Shown here one piece after another: positions 3,820 to 28,745 of a stretch of DNA of 63,120 nucleotides. Origin of the DNA: Jannaschia seosinensis. GTDB taxonomy: Bacteria > Pseudomonadota > Alphaproteobacteria > Rhodobacterales > Rhodobacteraceae. Made by a program: the position numbers and the translations under genes. The DNA lies in contig NZ_CYPR01000085.1 of assembly GCF_001408515.1 (NCBI RefSeq), forward strand, positions 1 to 63,120, given 5' to 3'. Every line of letters begins with the position of its first letter. The first letter of the stretch is position 1. The notes under the pieces were generated by a model, which worked only from the letters and a program-made list of their open reading frames with translations, ran no database searches and had not been told where the DNA came from.

Positions 3820-5250
3820 ATGCAGGACGGACAGGCGCGAATCGGATTGATCGGGCTCGGGACGATGGGTGCGGCGTTGGCCTCGAACATCGCGGAGAAG
3901 GGCTTCGAAGTCGCCGTCTTCAACCGCACCACGCAGGTGACGCGCGAATTCGTCGCCGATGCCGGGGATCTGGCGGCGCGCATGGTGCCGACCGAGACGC
4001 TTGAGGCACTGGTCGCAGCCATCGCCCCGCCCCGCGCGATCATCCTGATGGTGCCGGCCGGGCAGCCGGTGGACGACCAGATCGCGGCGCTGCGCCCGCT
4101 TCTGGATGCGGACGACCTGATCATCGATTGCGGCAACGCCAATTTCCACGAGACCGACCGCCGCGTGGCGGAGGCGACCGGCCCCTTTCTCGGCGTCGGC
4201 GTCTCGGGCGGGGAGGAAGGCGCGCGTCACGGGCCGGCGATCATGGGCGGCGGCGATCCGGCGCATTGGGCCCGGGTCGAGGACATCATGCTGGCCATTG
4301 CGGCGCACCACGGGGACGAGCCCTGCGCTGCGCTGGTCGGGCCGGAAGGGGCCGGGCATTTCGTCAAGATGGTCCATAACGGCATCGAATATGCCGACAT
4401 GCAGATGATCGCGGAGGTCTACGGCATCCTGCGCGAGGGGCACGGCATGGGCTACGACGCCATTGCCGACGTATTCGCACGCTGGGACGAGGGGCCGCTC
4501 AAGAGCTACCTGATCGAGATTTCCAGCGCGGTCGCGCGGGCCCGCGACGTCGCGACGGGCGAGCCGCTGCTGAGCCAGATCATCGACGCGGCGGGCCAGA
4601 AGGGCACCGGCCGCTGGACCGCCATCGAGAGCCAGCACCTGATGACCCCGATCCCCGCGATCGAGGCCGCGGTGGTCGCGCGCAATGTGTCGTCACGGCG
4701 CGAGGAGCGGGCACGCGGCGAGGCCATGTTCGGCGCGGCACCGGAACGGTTCGACACGCTCGACCACGACACGCTGGAGCGCGCCCTGATCGCCGGCAAG
4801 ATCCTGTGTTATGCGCAGGGTTTCGTGATGATCGCCGCCACCTGCGAGGCGCATGGCTGGGACATCGATCTGCCGCAGGTCGCGCGCCTGTGGCGGGAGG
4901 GATGCATCATCCGCTCGACGATGCTCGACGACATGGCGGCCGCGCTGGAGGCGCATCCGGGCGAGAATCTGATGCGCACGCCGTTCTTCGCGAACCTGCT
5001 GAAGGAAAACCACGGGGCGCTGCGCCGTGTGGTGGCGGAGGCGGCGCTTCACGGCCATCCAACGCCGGCGCTGTCGTCCGGGCTGGCCTATTTCGATGCG
5101 ATGCGCACCGCGCGGGGCACGGCGGCTCTGATCCAAGGACAGCGGGATTTCTTCGGGCTGCACGGGTTCGAGCACGTCAACGGCCTGTTCCACCAGCACG
5201 GGCCCTGGGCGCGCCAGACCGCGACGCCGAAGCACGAACCGAAGACCTGA
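3820..5250 (+). CDS. gnd: 6-phosphogluconate dehydrogenase (decarboxylating)
   Basis: Oxidises 6-phosphogluconate to ribulose 5-phosphate and CO2 with NADP+ in the cytosolic pentose phosphate pathway. The 476 residues equal the usual length of the long (dimeric) form. A Rossmann motif GLGTMG lies at residues 12-17; GVGVSGGEEGARHGPAIMGG and the catalytic helix GPEGAGHFVKMVHNGIEY (Lys183, Asn187) are intact, as is the C-terminal ALIQGQRDFFGLHGFE. The gene ends 16 bases from the convergent hemC stop, and the two share a hairpin. Confidence 0.95.
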   Translation: MQDGQARIGLIGLGTMGAALASNIAEKGFEVAVFNRTTQVTREFVADAGDLAARMVPTETLEALVAAIAPPRAIILMVPAGQPVDDQIAALRPLLDADDLIIDCGNANFHETDRRVAEATGPFLGVGVSGGEEGARHGPAIMGGGDPAHWARVEDIMLAIAAHHGDEPCAALVGPEGAGHFVKMVHNGIEYADMQMIAEVYGILREGHGMGYDAIADVFARWDEGPLKSYLIEISSAVARARDVATGEPLLSQIIDAAGQKGTGRWTAIESQHLMTPIPAIEAAVVARNVSSRREERARGEAMFGAAPERFDTLDHDTLERALIAGKILCYAQGFVMIAATCEAHGWDIDLPQVARLWREGCIIRSTMLDDMAAALEAHPGENLMRTPFFANLLKENHGALRRVVAEAALHGHPTPALSSGLAYFDAMRTARGTAALIQGQRDFFGLHGFEHVNGLFHQHGPWARQTATPKHEPKT

Positions 5251-5271
5251 GGGGGGCAGAGGCCCTCAGGT
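5245..5271. terminator. Shared hairpin between gnd and hemC
   Basis: acctgaggg (5245-5253) pairs with ccctcaggt (5263-5271) across a 9-base loop. The stem covers the stop codons of both convergent genes, so it can act as a two-way transcript end. No long T-run follows on either strand, so Rho-independent termination would be weak. Confidence 0.5.
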
Positions 5272-6207
5272 TCGCCAGTCGAAGAAGCCGGCTGGCGCGC
5301 GGCTTAGAAGATCGCGCGCCATCGCCTCGCCCAAATCCGCGCCCTCGCCCGTCGGGGCCTCGCCCGACACGGTCAGCACGTCGGAGCCGTCGGGGCGCAG
5401 GATCTCGCCACGAAAGGCCAGACGGTCGCCATCCAGTTCCGCAAGACCCGCAATCGGTGTCTCGCAGGATCCGTCGAGCGTGAGCAGGAACGCCCGCTCG
5501 CACGCGAGTTGCAGCCCGGTGGGGTGATCGTGGATCGCCGCCAGCATCTCGGCCATCAGCGTGTCGTCCGCACGCCGTTCGATCCCGATCGCGCCCTGCG
5601 CCACGGCGGGCAGCATGTCGCCGGGATCCATCGGCATGCGCGGAATCTCTGCCGCGCCCAGCCGGTGAAGGCCCGCCATGGCGAGGAACGTCGCATCGGC
5701 CACGCCGTCGCGCAGCTTGGCCATGCGCGTCTGGACGTTGCCGCGAAACTCCACGATTCGCAGATCGGGGCGGCGCAGCGCGACCTGCGCACGCCGGCGC
5801 AGCGACGAGGTGCCGATCGTCGCGCCGTGTTTGAGATCGGCGAGCGTCCGCCCCTGCGGCGTGATGAAGGCGTCGCGCACGTCCTCGCGCGGCAGGAGCG
5901 CGTCGATCACGAGGCCATCGGGCTGCAGCGTCGGCATGTCCTTCATCGAGTGGACGGCGAGGTCGATGCCGCCTTCGAGAAGGGCCGCCTCGATCTCGCG
6001 GGTAAAGAGACCCTTCCCCCCGATCTGCGACAGCGGACGGTCGAGCACCCGGTCGCCGGTCGTCTTGATGACGGCAATCTCGAAGGCGTCCTCCTCCAGA
6101 TCGAACGCCGCCATCAGCCGATCGCGGGTTTCGTGCGCCTGCGCGAGCGCCAGCGGCGAGCCGCGCGTTCCGATGCGGCAGGGGCGGTCAGGGCGGGGCA
6201 GATCCAT
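5266..6207 (-). CDS. hemC: Hydroxymethylbilane synthase (porphobilinogen deaminase)
   Basis: Polymerises four porphobilinogens into hydroxymethylbilane, the third step of tetrapyrrole synthesis. The 313-residue product from MDLPRPDRPCRIGTRGSPLA contains the family start 'IGTRGSPLALAQA', the signature SMKDMPT, TSSLRRRAQ (substrate-binding arginines) and the cofactor-attachment Cys in DGSCETPIAG (about residue 248). A start ten codons upstream (6237) is possible but lacks conservation. It is divergent from hemE, with about 87 bases between the two starts, so the pair can share a control region. Confidence 0.95.
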   Translation of the reverse strand: MDLPRPDRPCRIGTRGSPLALAQAHETRDRLMAAFDLEEDAFEIAVIKTTGDRVLDRPLSQIGGKGLFTREIEAALLEGGIDLAVHSMKDMPTLQPDGLVIDALLPREDVRDAFITPQGRTLADLKHGATIGTSSLRRRAQVALRRPDLRIVEFRGNVQTRMAKLRDGVADATFLAMAGLHRLGAAEIPRMPMDPGDMLPAVAQGAIGIERRADDTLMAEMLAAIHDHPTGLQLACERAFLLTLDGSCETPIAGLAELDGDRLAFRGEILRPDGSDVLTVSGEAPTGEGADLGEAMARDLLSRAPAGFFDWRT

Positions 6208-21139: not shown

Positions 21140-22855
21140 ATGAGCGAGACGACGGAATACCAGGTGCTGGCGCGCAAATACCGCCCCGCGACCTTTGCCG
21201 ACCTGATCGGACAGGACGCGATGGTGCGGACGCTGCGCAATGCCTTCGCCGCCGATCGGATCGCGCAGGCCTTCATTCTCACCGGCATCCGCGGCACCGG
21301 AAAGACCACGACGGCGCGGATCGTGGCCAAGGGGCTCAACTGCGTCGGGCCGGACGGCACCGGCGGCCCGACGACCGATCCCTGCGGCGTCTGCGAGCCC
21401 TGCGTGGCGATTGCCCAAGGGCGGCATGTCGACGTGCTTGAGATGGATGCGGCCTCGAATACCGGCGTGAACGACATCCGCGAGATCATCGACGGCGTGG
21501 CCTATCGCGCGGCCTCGGCGCGCTACAAGATCTACATCATCGACGAGGTCCACATGCTCTCGAACAGCGCCTTCAACGCGCTGCTCAAGACGCTGGAGGA
21601 GCCGCCCGCGCATGTGAAGTTCATCTTCGCCACGACCGAGATCCGCAAGGTTCCGGTCACCGTTCTCAGCCGTTGCCAGCGGTTCGACCTGCGCCGGATC
21701 GAACCCGAGACGATGATCGCCCATCTGCGCGGCGTGGCCGAGAAGGAGCAGGCGGAGATCGCCGGCGACGCGCTGGCGCTCATCGCGCGCGCGGCCGAAG
21801 GGTCGGTGCGCGACGCTATGTCCCTGCTCGATCAGGCGATCAGCCACGGTGCGGGGGAAACCACGGCCGACGGGGTCCGTGCGATGCTGGGCCTCGCCGA
21901 CCGGGGCCGGGTGATGGACCTGTTCGACCTGATCATGCACGGCGACGCGGCCGGGGCGCTGCTGGAACTCGGTGCGCAATATTCCGACGGGGCGGACCCG
22001 CTCGCCGTCTTGCGGGATCTGGCGGAGATCACGCATTGGGTCAGCGTCATTCAGATCACGCCGGAGGCGGCCAACGATCCGACCGTCGCCCCGGACGAAC
22101 GGGCGCGCGGCCAGGCCTTTGCCCAAGGCCTTCCGATGCGGTCGCTCACCCGTATGTGGCAGATGCTTCTCAAGGCGCTGGAGGAGGTCGGCAACGCGCC
22201 CAACGCGATGATGGCGGCCGAAATGGCGGTGATTCGGCTGACGCATGTGGCTGACCTGCCCTCGCCCGACGATCTGGTGCGCAAGCTGCGCGATGCGCCG
22301 CCCTCGGGATCCGGCCCGGCGCCGCGCCCCGCCCCCTCGGGTGACGGGGGCGCGCCGGTCGCACGCGTGCGTCATGGCGGCGGCTCGGCCCAGCCCGCGC
22401 TGGCCGAGGATCCCGCGCTCGTGCGGTTTCAGACCTTCGACCAGATCGTGGAGTTGATCCGTGCCAATCGGGACGTGAAGCTGCTGGTCGAGGTGGAAAC
22501 GGGTGTGCGGCTGGCCCGCTATGCGCCCGGCCGGATCGAGTTCGAGCCCACGCCCGACGCCGCGCCGGATCTCGCAGCGCGCCTTGCCGGGCGGCTTCAG
22601 GGATGGACGGGCGTCCGCTGGGGCGTGTCGCTCGTCTCGGAGGGCGGTGCGCCAACGATCGCGGAGACCCGCGACAGCGAGTTGCGCGAGGCCGAGCGGG
22701 CCGCCCTCGCCCACCCGATGACGCAGGCGATCATGGACGCCTTTCCCGGTGCCGAACTCGTCGAAATCCGCACGCGAGCCGAGATCGCGCAGGAAGCGGC
22801 CGAAGGGGCGCTCGCCGAAGTCGAGGATGAATGGGATCCGTTTGACGAAGGGTGA
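21140..22855 (+). CDS. dnaX: DNA polymerase III subunit gamma/tau
   Basis: Clamp-loader ATPase of the replicase, 571 residues from MSETTEYQVLARKYRPATFA; an in-frame ATG at 21125 is less well placed. It has the Walker A motif (GIRGTGKTT), the four-cysteine zinc module between residues ~70 and 95 (LNC...CGVCEPC), Walker B IIDEVHML and the sensor FIFATTE. The C-terminal part is the alphaproteobacterial tau extension, ending with acidic EVEDEWDPFDEG. ybaB and recR, often direct neighbours of dnaX, here lie 5 kb downstream behind dps and an island. Confidence 0.95.
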   Translation: MSETTEYQVLARKYRPATFADLIGQDAMVRTLRNAFAADRIAQAFILTGIRGTGKTTTARIVAKGLNCVGPDGTGGPTTDPCGVCEPCVAIAQGRHVDVLEMDAASNTGVNDIREIIDGVAYRAASARYKIYIIDEVHMLSNSAFNALLKTLEEPPAHVKFIFATTEIRKVPVTVLSRCQRFDLRRIEPETMIAHLRGVAEKEQAEIAGDALALIARAAEGSVRDAMSLLDQAISHGAGETTADGVRAMLGLADRGRVMDLFDLIMHGDAAGALLELGAQYSDGADPLAVLRDLAEITHWVSVIQITPEAANDPTVAPDERARGQAFAQGLPMRSLTRMWQMLLKALEEVGNAPNAMMAAEMAVIRLTHVADLPSPDDLVRKLRDAPPSGSGPAPRPAPSGDGGAPVARVRHGGGSAQPALAEDPALVRFQTFDQIVELIRANRDVKLLVEVETGVRLARYAPGRIEFEPTPDAAPDLAARLAGRLQGWTGVRWGVSLVSEGGAPTIAETRDSELREAERAALAHPMTQAIMDAFPGAELVEIRTRAEIAQEAAEGALAEVEDEWDPFDEG

Positions 22856-23050
22856 TGGGTGGCGGAACGGCACCACGGAGCCCGAAGCCACGTTCGGCTT
22901 GGCAAAGACATCCCTCAACAGGAACCGACTGCAAGCAAGGCCACCCGGGGACGGCCTGAGGCTTTTCGAGCGACTCTGCGTTCTCGATGAAACCCAAATG
23001 CGCCCTGCTCCGTTTCACCTCCGAAAACCGCACTGAAAAAGGAGACCCCC
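22856..23050. other. dnaX-dps intergenic region
   Basis: 195 bases holding the dps ribosome binding site (aaaaaggag, about six bases before the ATG). A weak stem aggcc/ggcct at 22938-22957 followed by gaggctttt may end the dnaX transcript. I see no clear OxyR or iron box. Confidence 0.3.
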
Positions 23051-23533
23051 ATGCCCGAGAGCTTTGTTCAAGGCCTCAAGAGCCAGACCCAATCGCAGAT
23101 GATCGACCTCCTGAATGCCCGCGTGGCCGATAGCGTCGACCTGACGCTGGCCGTCAAGCAGGCGCATTGGAACCTGCGCGGTCGTGGCTATATCGGTGTG
23201 CACGAATTGCTCGACGATGTTGCCGAGCGTCTTCGTGAGCAGACCGACACGATGGCCGAGCGCGTGGCGATCATGGGCGGCTTCGCCCGCGGCACGACGC
23301 AGGAAGCGTCGAAGAACACGACGCTCGAGCCCTATCCGGTCGAGCTGACCGACATCAAGGAACACGTCCGCGAACTCGTGTCCCGCTTCAAGCAGCACGG
23401 CGCCAACCTCCGCGAGGCGATCGACGCCGCGGGCGAGGCAGGCGACGACGATGCCGAGGACCTGTTCACTGAGGTCAGCCGCCAAGTCGACAAGGATGCC
23501 TGGTTCATCGGGGCGAACGCGCCGCAGGACTGA
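23051..23533 (+). CDS. dps: Dps-family DNA-protecting ferroxidase
   Basis: A 160-residue mini-ferritin that oxidises Fe2+ with H2O2 and stores it in a dodecamer, shielding DNA. The inter-subunit ferroxidase ligands are present: AVKQAHWNLRG (first His), GVHELLDDVAERL (second His and the Asp/Glu pair on the next helix, with DTMAER). A strong ribosome binding site precedes the ATG. G+C matches the chromosome rather than the following island, so it probably belongs to the resident DNA. It is the last normal-composition gene before the island. Confidence 0.92.
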   Translation: MPESFVQGLKSQTQSQMIDLLNARVADSVDLTLAVKQAHWNLRGRGYIGVHELLDDVAERLREQTDTMAERVAIMGGFARGTTQEASKNTTLEPYPVELTDIKEHVRELVSRFKQHGANLREAIDAAGEAGDDDAEDLFTEVSRQVDKDAWFIGANAPQD

Positions 23534-23561
23534 ATGCCGAACACCCGATACGAGACGAAGG

Positions 23562-23603
23562 GGCCGCTCCCGCAGGGTGACGCATTCCGTGTGGTGGGAG
23601 CTT
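23562..23603 (+). repeat. Left inverted repeat of the dnaX-ybaB island
   Basis: The sequence beginning ggccgctcccgcagggtgac and ending ggtgggagct matches the reverse complement of 27675-27716 over about 42 bases. The core ggtgacgcattccg is identical and roughly 35 positions agree overall. It begins about 28 bases after the dps stop and faces outward with ggccgc. Confidence 0.65.
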
Positions 23604-23694
23604 TGAAAACACAGACTTGTCGCGCGACGCGCGGCAGGTCATTGCTATTGTTCAACAAGTTGCGGCAGTCATGACCGGAAAAAGCTGACGGAAA

Positions 23695-23714
23695 TCCGAG
23701 ACTTTTTTCTCGGA
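23695..23714. repeat. Perfect stem-loop upstream of the zinc-finger gene
   Basis: tccgaga-cttttt-tctcgga forms a 7-bp perfect stem with a 6-base loop, inside the roughly 400-base leader between dps and the large island gene. It could be an attenuator-like or operator structure; no function is shown. Confidence 0.4.
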
Positions 23715-23931
23715 AGCAAGCCCCGCCTGCTTGAGCGAAGAAACTTCCGGAATCTTGGACATTTCCTCTTCCGATCCCAGAAATACAGCCAATATCCTTC
23801 GACCACAAGCTTGACCTTCGCACGAGGCGGAGATCGCGGACGAATGTCCGCATCGACTTCAATCCAAGCAGATTCTCTGGTCTTTGGTCGGAAAACGACT
23901 CGAGGCAGAGCCGCGGATATCCGAGGTTCTG

Positions 23932-26328
23932 ATGACAAGCTTGGCAACACTCAACTTCAAGCTCTCCCAGCTCTATCCTGGCGCGGGGGAACATTGCATC
24001 AACACATGCGCGAACCCGGACTGCTCGAACTTCGGGCATCCGCTGACGGGTCGTGCCACCCGCAAGTCCATATGGGAGGAAAAGCGTCCTGACCTGACGC
24101 CAGAGCAACTGAAGTTCGTGGAGATGCATGGGCCGGGTGCCTACAAGCTCGCAGGCGCGAGCGAGAAGCACCGCCGAATCTCTCGCGTATTTGCCTACCA
24201 GAACAATCCGCACGTCTGGTCCGATCAACGCACTATCCGGTGCCTGGGCCAAACTCATGAGGGCAAAATCTGCGACTCCGGCTTCTCAATCCTGTCGCCG
24301 GACCACCTCGACGAGGAGATCGACAGACTCCGGAACTTCAATGGCGTTCTCGACGGACCCTCATGCGGAGCCTGCGGCAAGCGGTTTCTGGATGACCCTG
24401 ACGAGTTCGCCCTGGACGGCGTCCATGAGCGATCGAAGGATCGCAAGGGGCAACCTGTTCGCCAGAAGAGGACGCCCACGTCTCTTCGCGTGCTTCACAA
24501 GCCCTGCCGGGGGAAGAAGGGCGCGCGCTTCTCCGTCTCGCTGCCTCATGCCGGCCAGAAGACGACCGCCGACAATCTTAGGATTCTCGGAGCAGTGCTG
24601 AACAGCGCCGGGATCGTCGATGTCCAGCGCTCGATCGGGATCGCTGGCAAGAAGATCGGCATGTCGCGGATCTACGACCGCATCGAATGGCTCGAAGGAG
24701 TTTTTCTCGCATACGAGCGCGAGATGCTCCGCAGATGGAACGACAAGGTCGAACAAAGCGGTAAAGCAGTCGAACACCTTCTCAGCCACGACGACATGGT
24801 CCTGACGGTAAACTGGGAGACTTCGACTGACAGACGCAATACACAGCTCAACTGCGCAATCACAGCAGATGCACGCAGCGGCTATGTTTATCGCCTCGAT
24901 GTCGACTTCGACCCCCGCGCCACACCTCTGGATACGTTCAACGCGACATATCTCGACCAGGCCGGGATGCCGCAGAACCTCGAGCATCTCTATCCGAACA
25001 GCAAGGTGCAGTCGGCCCCGAAGTTCTCGTGGCAACGGCCGACAGGCCGATATCACGAGCCGCAGTTTTTCGCGGCCTGCGTCAACGAGATCAAGGCATT
25101 TCAGAGCCGAGCGAAGCGCCGAATGCCGAAGAAAGACAAGAGCCAGCAGGCCGCACGCTCTGCTTTGATCCAGCGAACGAAGGGCATGATTGCCAACATC
25201 CGGATGATCTCGGAGGGATGGTTCGGCTTCCCAATCGACGAATCCGAGGAGCGTGGTTCGTTCAAGGGCATGACGACCAGGGACATTTACACAAAGGGCG
25301 CCCATTTTGCGCTCCTGAAGGAGATACTTTCGCGAGGATCAATCGTCCTCACCACCGAGCAGGAAGCAACCTTGCCGCCTCTGCTTCCGCATATCTTCGA
25401 CGAGGAGATCCGGGAAGACCGGTTCGCCTGGATGGCCATGAGCTTCAACAAGAAGGCAACGAAGCCGGAGAAGCTCGACAAGGTGAAGGAATATCGAAAG
25501 GCGCGAAAGCAGTTCCATAATGACGGCATGTATGCTGGCCGCTTCGACCCGGGAACGGACGCGCAGACGGTAAGTGAGGCGTTCATCGCCGATCGTATGG
25601 CGACAGCCCTCCGGGGAACTGCCGCGCATTTTCAGATCTCGAACTATCAGTCCGAGGTATTTCCGGCGCTCTGGGTTCGGTCCGCCACACAGGCAAGCGG
25701 CGAAATCGACAAAACTGTCGGCTTTCCCATCTTGCCGCGCCACATGCGTAGGACGCTAAAGAAGCTGCCGTTCGACCAAGAAGAGCTGAGCCAAGACCTG
25801 CGCGAAGAGCTCGCGCCATGGGTTTACAAGGCGACGCTTCAACCGGTCAGCTCCTTCATGAACTCTCTTCGCGAGAGGATGAGCGTCGCCGCCCGGGCCG
25901 GCAGTGGAGGTGCTCGCGTGGGCGGCTCTTACGTTCAGGGCGCGATCTTCAATCCCAGAACACTGATCGCACTCCTGAACATCTATCGCGTTCACTATAA
26001 CTTCTTCGAACCCCGGCCCTACACATGCCCCTACGAGGAGATTGACGACCTCGTCGATCCTCCGAAGCTGACACCGCGCGCGCTGCGGATACCCGGAACG
26101 GATGAGTTCGTTGATCTTCCGCCGCGGGCGCGACGTTCTCGCGCGCGTATGACGCCGGCCATGCGCCATGGCATGGACGCCTTCACGCAGCGCAATGATG
26201 GCACACAGGACCCGCCCGACATCTACCGGATGCTGTATCGCCCGTGGCTCTACATGGGCACCAAGCTCGGAGCGCGGTTTGAGCGATCCCGGGGTCGACA
26301 AAAACACCAGGTGCCAGCCTCGTCATAG
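23932..26328 (+). CDS. Large multi-cysteine, transposase-like island protein
   Basis: I do not recognise a named gene. From ATG 23932 (gaggttctg before it; an in-frame start at 23884 is weaker) the product has 798 residues. Residues 22-31 read CINTCANPDC, then come C104, C114 and CGAC at 145-148 followed by GKRF, resembling the 'CxNPxC' and 'CxxCGKxF' zinc modules of IS1-like and related transposases. The middle (GYVYRLDVDFDP; GSFKGMTTRDIYTKGAHFAL) and the end (NPRTLIALLNIYRVHYNFFE) recall, from memory, a family of 'insertion element' proteins with an RNase-H-like core of about 500 residues. The catalytic triad cannot be placed. G+C is lower than in its neighbours. It is followed by an AlbA_2 gene, and both are enclosed by inverted repeats. 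Confidence 0.55.
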   Translation: MTSLATLNFKLSQLYPGAGEHCINTCANPDCSNFGHPLTGRATRKSIWEEKRPDLTPEQLKFVEMHGPGAYKLAGASEKHRRISRVFAYQNNPHVWSDQRTIRCLGQTHEGKICDSGFSILSPDHLDEEIDRLRNFNGVLDGPSCGACGKRFLDDPDEFALDGVHERSKDRKGQPVRQKRTPTSLRVLHKPCRGKKGARFSVSLPHAGQKTTADNLRILGAVLNSAGIVDVQRSIGIAGKKIGMSRIYDRIEWLEGVFLAYEREMLRRWNDKVEQSGKAVEHLLSHDDMVLTVNWETSTDRRNTQLNCAITADARSGYVYRLDVDFDPRATPLDTFNATYLDQAGMPQNLEHLYPNSKVQSAPKFSWQRPTGRYHEPQFFAACVNEIKAFQSRAKRRMPKKDKSQQAARSALIQRTKGMIANIRMISEGWFGFPIDESEERGSFKGMTTRDIYTKGAHFALLKEILSRGSIVLTTEQEATLPPLLPHIFDEEIREDRFAWMAMSFNKKATKPEKLDKVKEYRKARKQFHNDGMYAGRFDPGTDAQTVSEAFIADRMATALRGTAAHFQISNYQSEVFPALWVRSATQASGEIDKTVGFPILPRHMRRTLKKLPFDQEELSQDLREELAPWVYKATLQPVSSFMNSLRERMSVAARAGSGGARVGGSYVQGAIFNPRTLIALLNIYRVHYNFFEPRPYTCPYEEIDDLVDPPKLTPRALRIPGTDEFVDLPPRARRSRARMTPAMRHGMDAFTQRNDGTQDPPDIYRMLYRPWLYMGTKLGARFERSRGRQKHQVPASS

Positions 26329-26470
26329 GTCATGCGCCTGACGAAAAAAGCCTTTCGCTATGCGGCGACTGAACCAATATCTTGATCTCACAAGGTCCAT
26401 ACACGCGGCCGCGGTGGCAAGCACACGAGTATGCTCACGTGAGGCAAGTAGATGATTTCAGGAGCTTAGG
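26329..26470. other. Spacer between the two island genes
   Basis: 142 A/T-richer bases with a probable ribosome binding site (aggagcttagg) for the next gene. Enough room for a promoter, so the two island genes may or may not form an operon. cgctatgcggcg and ctcacgtgag (a 10-base palindrome at about 26434-26443) are the only repeats seen. Confidence 0.35.
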
Positions 26471-27559
26471 ATGAACGCTGACGAGTTGGAAGCCAGGCTT
26501 GGGCTGCTTCCTAAGGGAGAAAACGAATATCGTGTTACTGCCTGGGAGAGCACCGACTTGGAGTTCAAGCGAGATATGGCGGTCGCGACATTTCGGAAAG
26601 CACTGAAGACCATCGCGGCGTTTGCGAACAAGAATGGCGGGATCATTGTGTTCGGGGTCTCCGATAATCCTCGCATGCTCGTCGGGCTCAACGGTCAAGT
26701 CTTGGACGAAGGTCAACAATCAGAGCAAATCGCCTCGGTCATCTCGCCGATTCCCACCACGCACTTCGCTACGCTCGATATTCATGGTCGTGCCATAGGG
26801 GTGCTACTCGTCGAGCCGCTATCGAAGCCACCTGCCATCGCAATAAAAGATCTCTCGGGAGCTCAAGGCACCGACAATATTCTACGCAAGGGCACGGTCT
26901 ACACTCGTCGAAGAGGGCAGACTGCTCCCATCACCGGAGAAGAGTTCTCACAACTTTTGCTGTCGCGGGATGAGAGAATCCGAAGCGAAATATTCGCATA
27001 CCTGGGCCGAGGCCGTGAAATCGGATTTGACCAAGTTGTTGTTGCCGACCCGAGAAGCGATTCGGAAGATGGCAATGAAGAGATGACTTTCTATCTTCCC
27101 GCCACAGCTGCATCCAACATGAACGTCATCGACAGGGGAACTTTGGTGCAGGAAGGCGGTGCGCCGGCCTACAAGCTCGTAGGAAATGTTCAGCTATCGA
27201 CGCCTGCTGACAAAGATCCGCGAAATCCGAAGCGTCCTTCCGATGCAGTCGAGGAGATGCGCCCCACTATCGTGGAGGTTTTTGGAGCTGCGTTTCCTTG
27301 GTCGCATTTTCACTTGCGTAGAGCAGCGGAACATCTCGGGTTCTGGAACCAACCAGAAGGGGACAAGACCCATACCGGCGTAGAACCTATCACAGGGACG
27401 ACGCTTTATTACGCCAGGGCGCGCGATGCAGTATCCCAGTTTGCGAGGCAGACACCAGACGACTTTGTTGAAGTTGTCGGCTCACAGAAAACACAGCAGG
27501 CTTGGAAGCAAAGCCGCACCGAGGTCGTCGATGTGGATGAGCCAGGAGGTGAAGGGTGA
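26471..27559 (+). CDS. Schlafen-type AlbA_2 domain protein
   Basis: A 362-residue protein. Residues about 25-155 form an AlbA_2 (Schlafen core-like) domain: ESTDLEFKRDMAVATFRKAL, then TIAAFANKNGGIIVFGVSDN with PRMLVGL, and VYTRRRGQTAPITGEEF at its end. The usual ExK nuclease-like pair is present as E-F-K (LEFKRD). No helicase or ATPase domain follows. The C-terminal half, with a likely winged-helix segment (PWSHFHLRRAAEHLGFWNQP), is not familiar. AlbA_2 proteins are frequent in prokaryotic defence islands and phages; a role in immunity or in regulating the element is inference. Codon use is less GC-biased than in flanking genes. Confidence 0.7.
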   Translation: MNADELEARLGLLPKGENEYRVTAWESTDLEFKRDMAVATFRKALKTIAAFANKNGGIIVFGVSDNPRMLVGLNGQVLDEGQQSEQIASVISPIPTTHFATLDIHGRAIGVLLVEPLSKPPAIAIKDLSGAQGTDNILRKGTVYTRRRGQTAPITGEEFSQLLLSRDERIRSEIFAYLGRGREIGFDQVVVADPRSDSEDGNEEMTFYLPATAASNMNVIDRGTLVQEGGAPAYKLVGNVQLSTPADKDPRNPKRPSDAVEEMRPTIVEVFGAAFPWSHFHLRRAAEHLGFWNQPEGDKTHTGVEPITGTTLYYARARDAVSQFARQTPDDFVEVVGSQKTQQAWKQSRTEVVDVDEPGGEG

Positions 27560-27618
27560 GAGTTGGTCTAAAGCTAACTTGCCATAGAAGCGGACATCTC
27601 TCCGGAAGGTCATGAGTT

Positions 27619-27648
27619 GGGCCGCGACCGTTTCGATCGCGGCCCTTT
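27619..27648 (+). terminator. Terminator after the AlbA_2 gene
   Basis: gggccgcga (27619-27627) pairs with tcgcggccc (27637-27645) across a 9-base loop and is followed by tttgctt. It closes the island transcript and lies just inside the right inverted repeat. Confidence 0.65.
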
Positions 27649-27674
27649 GCTTCTTGAGGTATCGCTGAGCCGCC

Positions 27675-27716
27675 AGCCTCCCACCGTGCGGAATGCGTCA
27701 CCCGCAGGGGGCGGCC
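27675..27716 (-). repeat. Right inverted repeat of the dnaX-ybaB island
   Basis: The reverse complement begins ggccgccccctgcgggtgac and matches the left repeat at 23562-23603. On the plus strand its outer end ggcggcc is directly followed by ttttt, and gccgcc at 27670-27675 could pair with ggcggc, so it may also serve as a transcript end. Confidence 0.65.
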
Positions 27717-27799
27717 TTTTTGCATGGGCCGGCCGCGCTTGCGGCGCCGGTGCGGACGTCCTACCTCGGAGAGGACCTCTGAAGAGAAGGAACAGACGG

Positions 27800-28144
27800 A
27801 TGTTGAAGGGATTGGGCGGCCTCGGCGACATGGCCGGAATGATGAAGAAGGCGCAGGAGATGCAGGAGAAGATGGGCGAGGTGCAGGAAAATCTGTCGTC
27901 CATTACTGTAACCGGCGAAAGCGGCGCGGGTCTGGTCAAGGCCACCGCGACCGCCAAGGGCGAGTTGACGGCGCTCGACATCGATCCGTCGATCTTCGAC
28001 GCGTCCGAGAAGGAGATGGTCGAGGACCTGATCCTTGCCGCCATCAAGGACGCGCAGGCCCGCGCCACCGAGCGGTCGCAGCAGGAAATGTCGAAGATCG
28101 CCGAGAGCCTCGGCCTGCCGCCGGGCATGAAACTGCCGTTCTGA
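27800..28144 (+). CDS. ybaB: YbaB/EbfC nucleoid-associated protein
   Basis: A 114-residue DNA-binding protein of the YbaB/EbfC family, starting [20 protein letters not shown], with the usual amphipathic first helix and the central beta region [20 protein letters not shown]. The family forms dimers that coat DNA and is nearly always encoded between dnaX and recR. Here recR follows after 4 bases, but dnaX is separated by the inserted island and dps. Its promoter must lie within about 80 bases of the island border or inside the right repeat. Confidence 0.93.
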
Positions 28145-28148
28145 GTTC

Positions 28149-28745
28149 TTGGACGGCACGCGCGATATCGAGGCGTTGATCGACCTCATGGCCCGCCTGC
28201 CGGGCCTCGGCCCGCGCTCTGCGCGTCGGGCCGTCCTGCATCTGCTTAAGAAGCGGGAGACGCACCTTCTGCCGCTGGCGCAGTCGCTGGACCGGGTGGG
28301 CCGGTCGGTACGTGACTGCCTCAATTGCGGCAACCTGACCACCGGCGACATCTGCCGCATCTGCGAGGACCCGGAACGGCAGAACGGGCAGATCTGCGTG
28401 GTGGAGGACGTCGCCGACCTCTGGGCGATGGAACGCGCGCGCGTCTTTCCCGGCCGGTATCACGTTTTGGGCGGCACGCTGTCGCCGCTCGACGATATCG
28501 GACCCGAAGACCTCGCCATTCCGAAGCTGCGCGATCGGATCGCCGCCGAGGAAGTCACCGAGATCATCCTCGCCCTCAACGCCACGGTCGAGGGTCAGAC
28601 GACCGCGCATTACGTTGCGCGCGAAGTCGGTGTTGCAAATATAACGATTTCGGGGCTTGCGCAGGGGGTCCCGGTCGGAGGAGAGTTGGATTATCTGGAC
28701 GACGGCACATTGAAGGCCGCATTATCCTCGAGAAAACCGTTCTAG
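28149..28745 (+). CDS. recR: Recombination mediator protein RecR
   Basis: RecFOR pathway protein (198 residues) that helps load RecA at gaps. It starts at a TTG codon (28149), four bases after ybaB, as [20 protein letters not shown]; no ATG fits. The helix-hairpin-helix region [17 protein letters not shown], the zinc finger [16 protein letters not shown] and the Toprim domain ([39 protein letters not shown]) are complete, as is the Walker-B-like C-terminal part. Confidence 0.95.

Follow-up and report, generated by a model that had tools for sequence, protein, structure and literature searches.

IS1272 and TnSha1, both of the IS1182 family, insert into hairpin targets that include transcription terminators and show little sequence conservation, and TnSha1 carries a passenger gene; IS1272 is reported to make a blunt cut and to delete part of the hairpin, with no target duplication (PMC4923244). 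IS1397, ISKpn1 and other insertion sequences (IS) choose extragenic palindromes known as repetitive extragenic palindromic (REP) sequences or palindromic units (PU) (PMC1525189). Here we describe a 4123-bp element in a 63,120-nt stretch of Jannaschia seosinensis DNA (NZ_CYPR01000085.1, positions 1 to 63,120; hereafter the window), which very probably represents an unnamed transposon family that targets the loops of terminators and whose exchangeable cargo often consists of defence genes. Comparison of sequences between loci yields the ends, the target-site duplication (TSD), the empty site, the copies at different loci and in different genera, the enrichment of hairpins and the variation in cargo to which this reading appeals.

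The window element differs from IS1272 as reported in having a 9-bp TSD centred on the loop and in keeping both halves of the hairpin, a configuration outside the IS1182/IS1272 pattern; no Pfam or NCBIfam transposase family matched its putative transposase. The targets of the REP-directed elements are repeated REP sequences, whereas the sites found here are terminators that vary in sequence, and the window protein matched neither an IS3 nor an IS110 transposase family. Elements of the IS1 family produce target duplications of 8-9 bp, a range into which the 9-bp TSD falls; in contrast to IS1, the window protein is about 800 aa long and gave no IS1 family match at the cut-off, and the element ends begin TGACGC. 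We know of no terminator targeting or defence cargo in IS1. The IS1595 family was set aside, an hhalign comparison of our superfamily profile (A3) with one IS1595 protein of locus L118 having returned a probability of 0.7%. Tn7 and Tn7-like transposons insert at safe sites near the 3' ends of genes and carry defence cargo; by contrast, one transposition gene is recognised in the window element (open reading frames, ORFs, judged by eye), and the family occupies many terminators rather than one att site. Tn3 family elements have inverted repeats of about 38 bp, a 5-bp duplication and a Tn3 transposase, and this family was likewise rejected given the 9-bp TSD, the 22-nt terminal inverted repeat (TIR) and the lack of a Pfam Tn3 match. 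In the full-text literature covered, with ISfinder and most subscription journals outside its scope and absence from print not established, no terminator-loop element with a 9-bp TSD and defence cargo surfaced.

The Element and the Terminator It Occupies

The element ends consist of TGACGCATTCCGnnnGGTGGGA, about 22 nt long, at 23578 (+) and 27700 (-), both beginning TGACGC and identical to each other at 19/22 positions, as expected of terminal inverted repeats at an element boundary. A combined scan for TIR and TSD up to 2.5 kb to the left and up to 5 kb to the right of the transposase gene ranked this pair first, with 19/22 for the TIR and 9/9 for the TSD (runner-up 15 and 7), and the perfect 9-bp copies of CCCGCAGGG constitute the target duplication expected of a DNA transposon. 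Joining the flanks with a single TSD copy restores CGAAGGGGCCGCTCCC(gca)GGGGGCGGCCTTTTTG, a rho-independent terminator directly 3' of a gene that we take to be dps (dnaX, dps, ybaB and recR are gene names given by an earlier sequence-only reading of the window). The island looks like an element that entered the dps terminator at its hairpin loop. The features of the locus are as follows.

23051-23533, + strand: dps-like gene, whose 3' terminator is the insertion target (ORF; homologue near ybaB in 17/19 same-genus loci)
23556-23571, + strand: 5' arm of the split rho-independent dps terminator, host sequence (joined flanks)
23569-23577, + strand: left TSD copy, CCCGCAGGG, identical at 9/9 positions to 27701-27709
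23578-27700, no strand assigned: whole element, 4123 bp (TIR and TSD scan, joined flanks)
23578-23599, + strand: left TIR, TGACGCATTCCGTGTGGTGGGA (TIR pattern scans; consensus of 26 ends)
23932-26328, + strand: transposase-like gene, 798 aa from the ATG at 23932, the likelier start; cysteine-rich N-terminal part; homologues with the same ends elsewhere
26471-27559, + strand: cargo gene for a 362-aa protein (P0002) with an N-terminal Schlafen AlbA_2 domain (Pfam PF04326)
27619-27645, + strand: the element's own terminator hairpin (fold prediction), followed by TTTGCTTCTT
27679-27700, - strand: right TIR, TGACGCATTCCGCACGGTGGGA (TIR pattern scans)
27701-27709, + strand: right TSD copy, CCCGCAGGG, identical at 9/9 positions to the left copy
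27710-27722, + strand: 3' arm and T-run of the split dps terminator, host sequence (joined flanks)

The sequence-only reading had described an island of two genes edged by 42-base inverted repeats, with a terminator for its transcript inside the right repeat and without a target duplication. The two long ORFs, the lower G+C content (0.54-0.62 in the element vs 0.61-0.74 in its surroundings, in 500-base windows) and the inverted repeat itself stand, and the latter is the longest reported for 22500-28500 (23562-23600 with 27678-27716, 82% complementary). The limits of the repeat must be redrawn: the TIR comprises about 22 nt, and the outer 16-17 nt are host DNA, namely the two arms of one split palindrome. 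The duplication had been overlooked, as CCCGCAGGG stands at both 23569-23577 and 27701-27709. The T-run of the right repeat represents the 3' half of the terminator of dps; the element's own terminator lies inside the right end but outside the inverted repeat. A consensus terminator scan lists neither of these two terminators, and Rfam searches of 22500-28500 returned one match only, below threshold and irrelevant.

At all 19 of the other ybaB loci from the same genus (3.0-3.3 kb fetched per locus), a match to the transposase was absent, which supplies the empty site that the sequence-only reading had proposed to seek in relatives. The dps gene was present at 17 of them, with a gap to ybaB of 89-208 bp in 14/17 and of 827, 834 and 1428 bp in the other three; in the window, the gap after joining the flanks is 136 bp. 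A terminator-like hairpin was found in 7/17 gaps, and the other 10 showed none within their first 260 bases. One of these loci (L020, genome G005) holds an intact GAAGGGCCGCCCC(gtcc)GGGGCGGCCTTTTT 3' of dps, near-identical to the joined site of the window.

Copies at Other Loci

Homologous transposase genes bounded by the same terminal repeats occur at other loci, and copies at differing loci together with an empty site are what is expected of a DNA transposon. Transposases 86-89% identical to that of the window are encoded in the same genus and in other genera, namely in a Rhodobacteraceae metagenome-assembled genome (L028), in Loktanella atrilutea (L029, left end only), in another genus (L072, genome G171) and in an uncultured Jannaschia record (L030, apparently on the same contig as L004 in genome G016 of the window's genus). 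The last of these, 2873 bp long, aligns with the window over 2743 bp at 83.5% DNA identity, plus the right end, and lacks the AlbA_2 gene.

In a survey of 394 genomes of the family, almost all of them the sole representative of their genus, the transposase was found at E<=1e-10 in 18 (own genome counted), and the exact TIR pattern occurred 11 times in 7 genomes, all 7 among those 18; a reversed control pattern had 0 occurrences in the rows printed. In the remaining 11 transposase genomes, the ends were diverged or none were found. Within the genus, 3/20 genomes had a transposase match at E<=0.001. The window transposase (P0001) retrieved one plasmid record and no match in phages, while viral contigs yielded no relative of query A1, P0001 or the protein of L075 and one relative each for A3 and L096. 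Query A1 was found in 1/385 genomes across the class, namely the own genome, and in 1/1, 1/2 and 1/5 genomes in the genera of G222, G276 and G171, respectively; the remote relative L093 was found in 4/239 genomes of the phylum and 1/230 of the class, own genome included. Superfamily members were found in Rhodobacteraceae, other Proteobacteria and Bacillota.

Several further observations concern decayed or remote members. A second superfamily member, a remote one, is present in the genome from which the window derives (G000:C214:10934-12631; L122, L125), as a 605-aa frame 32% identical to L093, for which no element ends were found in the end scan. At L079 (5607-6739), an IS3-type element of two frames, judged by eye, interrupts a member of the transposase family. 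A perfect solo TIR lies at position 6866 of L109 (G085:C13), at the start of a ParA-like frame (by eye), and is possibly a relic; no transposase match was found on that contig in the 394-genome survey. Internally deleted short derivatives with recognisable ends are present at L087 (3739-4995, 1257 bp) and L085 (4548-5899, 1352 bp), both in hairpins.

Insertion Sites Are Enriched in Hairpins

The insertion sites of 21 copies were compared, 13 of them two-ended Rhodobacteraceae copies and 8 remote ones from Proteobacteria and Bacillota (L093, L097, L113, L114, L126, L128, L129 and L130). The former came from TIR pattern scans (at most 4 mismatches), L076 from the TIR and TSD scan, and Rhodobacteraceae copies with a single recognisable end (e.g., L029, L031, L077, L079, L082 and L089) were left out. 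For the latter, ends were sought at 18 remote loci (L093, L095-L099, L113-L118 and L125-L130), of which the 8 convincing cases were kept and the other 10 left out; since a TSD was required in selecting these ends, their perfect TSDs prove nothing, while hairpins played no part in the selection. Among the Rhodobacteraceae copies, the TSD is 9/9 in seven (the window, L030, L072, L073, L074, L076 and L080), 8/9 in three (L084, L085 and L111), 6/9 in L087 and 1/9 in L075 and L028, with 8 letters in common at L075 when shifted by one base.

The relatives appear to occupy transcription terminators far above chance. A hairpin centred on the TSD (score >=17, loop centre <=3.5 nt from the TSD centre, assessed on the empty site) was present at 17/21 sites, comprising 11/13 Rhodobacteraceae and 6/8 remote copies; under the same definition, such a hairpin was present at 3.5% of 10,500 random host positions and at 2.7% of 1,356 positions 25-160 bp away. 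When a run of four A or T was also required, the figures were 15/21 against 0.27% of random and 0.15% of nearby positions, and with a stricter score of >=24 they were 14/21 against 0.39% and 0.15%. With a 2-nt limit and a score of 17, 10/13 Rhodobacteraceae copies retained the hairpin (vs 2.3%). The contrast between copies and controls was large under every limit tried. The site of L114, on a Pontibacillus (Bacillota) plasmid, where the protein is annotated as 'insertion element protein' and is 24% identical to L093, consists of a perfect palindrome of 13 bp, bordered on either side by A and T runs.

Cargo Genes

The window protein P0002 matches PF04326 (SLFN_AlbA_2) at 5e-18 (66.2 bits, cut-off 25.3), placing it in that family. 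It aligns with mammalian Schlafens over the stretches ESTxxEFK and GG...FGVSD, the former aligning with SLFN14; we take these stretches to hold the active-site carboxylates of Schlafens. A PHROGs family annotated as DNA helicase matched residues 17-81 at 2.7e-9. No AlbA_2 homologue was found among the ORFs of the other element copies and sources compared. Of 295 genomes, two further ones encode homologues (67% and 48% identity), and another homologue (40%) is carried by a Rhizobium plasmid, where genes annotated as abortive-infection, DNA methyltransferase and RloB lie nearby. Judged from the copies compared, the AlbA_2 gene is cargo, and the transposase gene alone is the mobile core, because copies at other loci carry the transposase without an AlbA_2 homologue. 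The sequence-only reading would have counted both genes, with the repeats, at different loci as support for mobility; such recurrence was seen for the transposase and its TIRs and not for the AlbA_2 gene. That the AlbA_2 protein acts as a predicted single-gene, nuclease-type defence is a proposal for which we see about even chances.

Of the 13 Rhodobacteraceae copies, 4 are free of cargo (L028, L030, L072 and L073), 2 are the deletion derivatives L085 and L087, and 7 have cargo. L080 carries a patatin phospholipase, a cyclase and an E2 protein, and L084 a cyclase, an E2 protein and an HNH-SAVED nuclease, each amounting to a cyclic-oligonucleotide-based anti-phage signalling system (CBASS). L075 carries a GmrSD_N protein like NsnA and PD-T4-2_A together with a RiboL-PSP-HEPN protein, and L074 a decayed GmrSD/HEPN pair in which the HEPN protein falls just below the Pfam cut-off. 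The cargo proteins of L076 (493 aa, opposite strand) and L111 (328 aa, in a copy that also holds IS3-type frames by eye) gave no Pfam or PADLOC hit. Known defence families are thus present in 4/7 cargo-bearing copies, with the window a candidate fifth and the other two without a family match. The single-ended L082 holds an N-terminal fragment of HsdM. In two remote copies the cargo is of the restriction-modification type, with a D12 methylase plus a NotI-type endonuclease in L126 and, in L128, a methylase plus a restriction enzyme whose match is weak (2.5e-5); L129 and L130 carry other genes. The suggestion of the sequence-only reading that the island is an unnamed small transposon or defence module is supported by the same TIRs around transposases elsewhere, the 19 element-free loci and the defence cargo in other copies.

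The Putative Transposase

The longest ORF of the transposase gene starts from a TTG at 23884 and encodes 814 aa. Neither NCBIfam nor PADLOC gave a match for the protein, and in Pfam none rose above cut-off, a match to DUF7079 lying below it. Remote relatives were found by pairwise and profile comparison and, among the matches listed, are mostly annotated 'hypothetical protein'; in one, L093 (614 aa), residues 140-220, towards the N-terminus, weakly match NCBIfam transpos_IS1 (8e-6, 25.9 bits, cut-off 100). Searches against the sequences of solved structures returned NAD kinases at E 0.3 for P0001 and only zinc-finger proteins for A3 (best 1.6e-6, in the cysteine-rich part), with no transposase among them, and PHROGs gave P0001 an HNH match at E 0.11. 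In an alignment of 12 proteins, three acidic residues (E129, D287 and D327) do not vary, and either D or E stands at positions 476 and 478. DDE (Asp-Asp-Glu) chemistry is likely because TIRs and a TSD are present.

Two relatives are of separate note. The 650-aa superfamily protein of L096 recurs on plasmid records of Enterococcus (90/131 matching records) and Staphylococcus (9/131), and a protein of this type adjoins resistance genes in the single plasmid region read. At L130 (G808, 4149-5795, - strand), an N-terminus of the DnaQ-like exonuclease type (by eye) is fused, in one open frame, to the cysteine-rich N-terminal part of a superfamily transposase.

Proposed Mechanism and Alternative Explanations

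We infer that the large cysteine-rich protein catalyses transposition and that hairpin shape or a palindrome is what it reads. As a transposase, it would bind the 22-nt ends and cut the terminator hairpin with a 9-bp stagger whose centre is the loop, so that the TSD would consist of the loop and the top of the stem. Insertion at the apex of a terminator would spare coding sequence, and exchangeable cargo, often defence genes, would occupy the interval from the transposase stop to the right end, in most cases in the orientation of the transposase gene.

A number of points weigh against this account. The AlphaFold model of the transposase, with a mean predicted local distance difference test score (pLDDT) of 30.9, is too poor to show a catalytic fold, no Pfam DDE family matches the protein, and the 12-protein alignment contains no conserved acidic residue past position 478, the region in which a DDE triad should have its last residue. 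The transposase is broken in several cargo copies (two frames in L080, interrupted in L074, the C-terminal part only in L084, fragments in L111), leaving a full-length frame in only three of seven, namely the window, L075 and L076. L028 and L087 have no convincing TSD, and that of L075 needs the one-base shift. Four of the 21 sites (L073, L084, L097 and L113) are without a hairpin despite a TSD of 8/9 or 9/9, and the hairpin score and distance limits were fixed after earlier runs had been seen, so P-values should not be taken at face value. With regard to the cargo, the sole defence-library hit of P0002 is weak (PADLOC PDC-S50, 1e-4), and two chromosomal AlbA_2 homologues had no TIR (at most 5 mismatches) in the stretches fetched, one of which was partly masked.

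The sites without a hairpin would also suit a transposase blind to terminators, with random insertions surviving in terminators since the genes there stay intact, and insertion just 3' of genes is expected to be near-neutral. Selection of this kind would accept any intergenic position, yet 17/21 TSDs lie within 3.5 nt of a loop centre, compared with 2.7% of positions 25-160 bp away; this precision on the hairpin apex points to target choice, and we consider survival of random insertions quite unlikely. Another explanation, close to one that the sequence-only reading had itself raised, is recruitment of the two genes, through recombination, by chromosomal or terminator-like repeats with no transposon involved, and the outer half of each repeat does correspond to one arm of a single terminator. 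The 9-bp TSD and the TIRs common to copies at other loci speak against recruitment, as does the distribution of the repeat: GGTGACGCATTCCG (at most 1 mismatch) is found at only two places in the window (mean of 0.06 in shuffled sequences), an 81-base query containing the left repeat gave no third match in the own genome at E<=0.001, and, among the 394 genomes, the exact TIR pattern occurs in none of those that lack the transposase. We therefore find recruitment scarcely credible, and the idea of a common intergenic repeat was rejected on the same distribution.

An explanation confined to the second gene holds that AlbA_2 belongs to the transposition machinery, as a regulator or target selector, and is not defence cargo. 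Its position between the ends, 3' of the transposase gene and on the same strand, would suit such a role, but AlbA_2 homologues are absent from the cargo-free L028, L030, L072 and L073 and from the other sources compared, and are also found without element ends nearby, making a part in transposition unlikely. We retain a transposon that chooses terminator loops and carries exchangeable cargo as the preferred reading.

Significance

We lean towards a broader view, in which the whole superfamily of 600-820-aa proteins would recognise intrinsic terminators by their palindrome or cruciform and make a symmetrical cut across the loop, acting as a general vehicle for the exchange of anti-phage systems (CBASS, restriction-modification, GmrSD/HEPN and AlbA_2) between genomes. 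If this is true, the superfamily could serve as such a vehicle because terminators are ubiquitous and harmless to enter. The elements suggest that defence genes, those of CBASS and restriction-modification among them, may travel by a simple transposon route, and their precise target rule, a 9-bp TSD centred on the terminator loop, could reveal a choice of DNA by shape or palindrome rather than by sequence. Candidate new defence genes can be sought between these ends.

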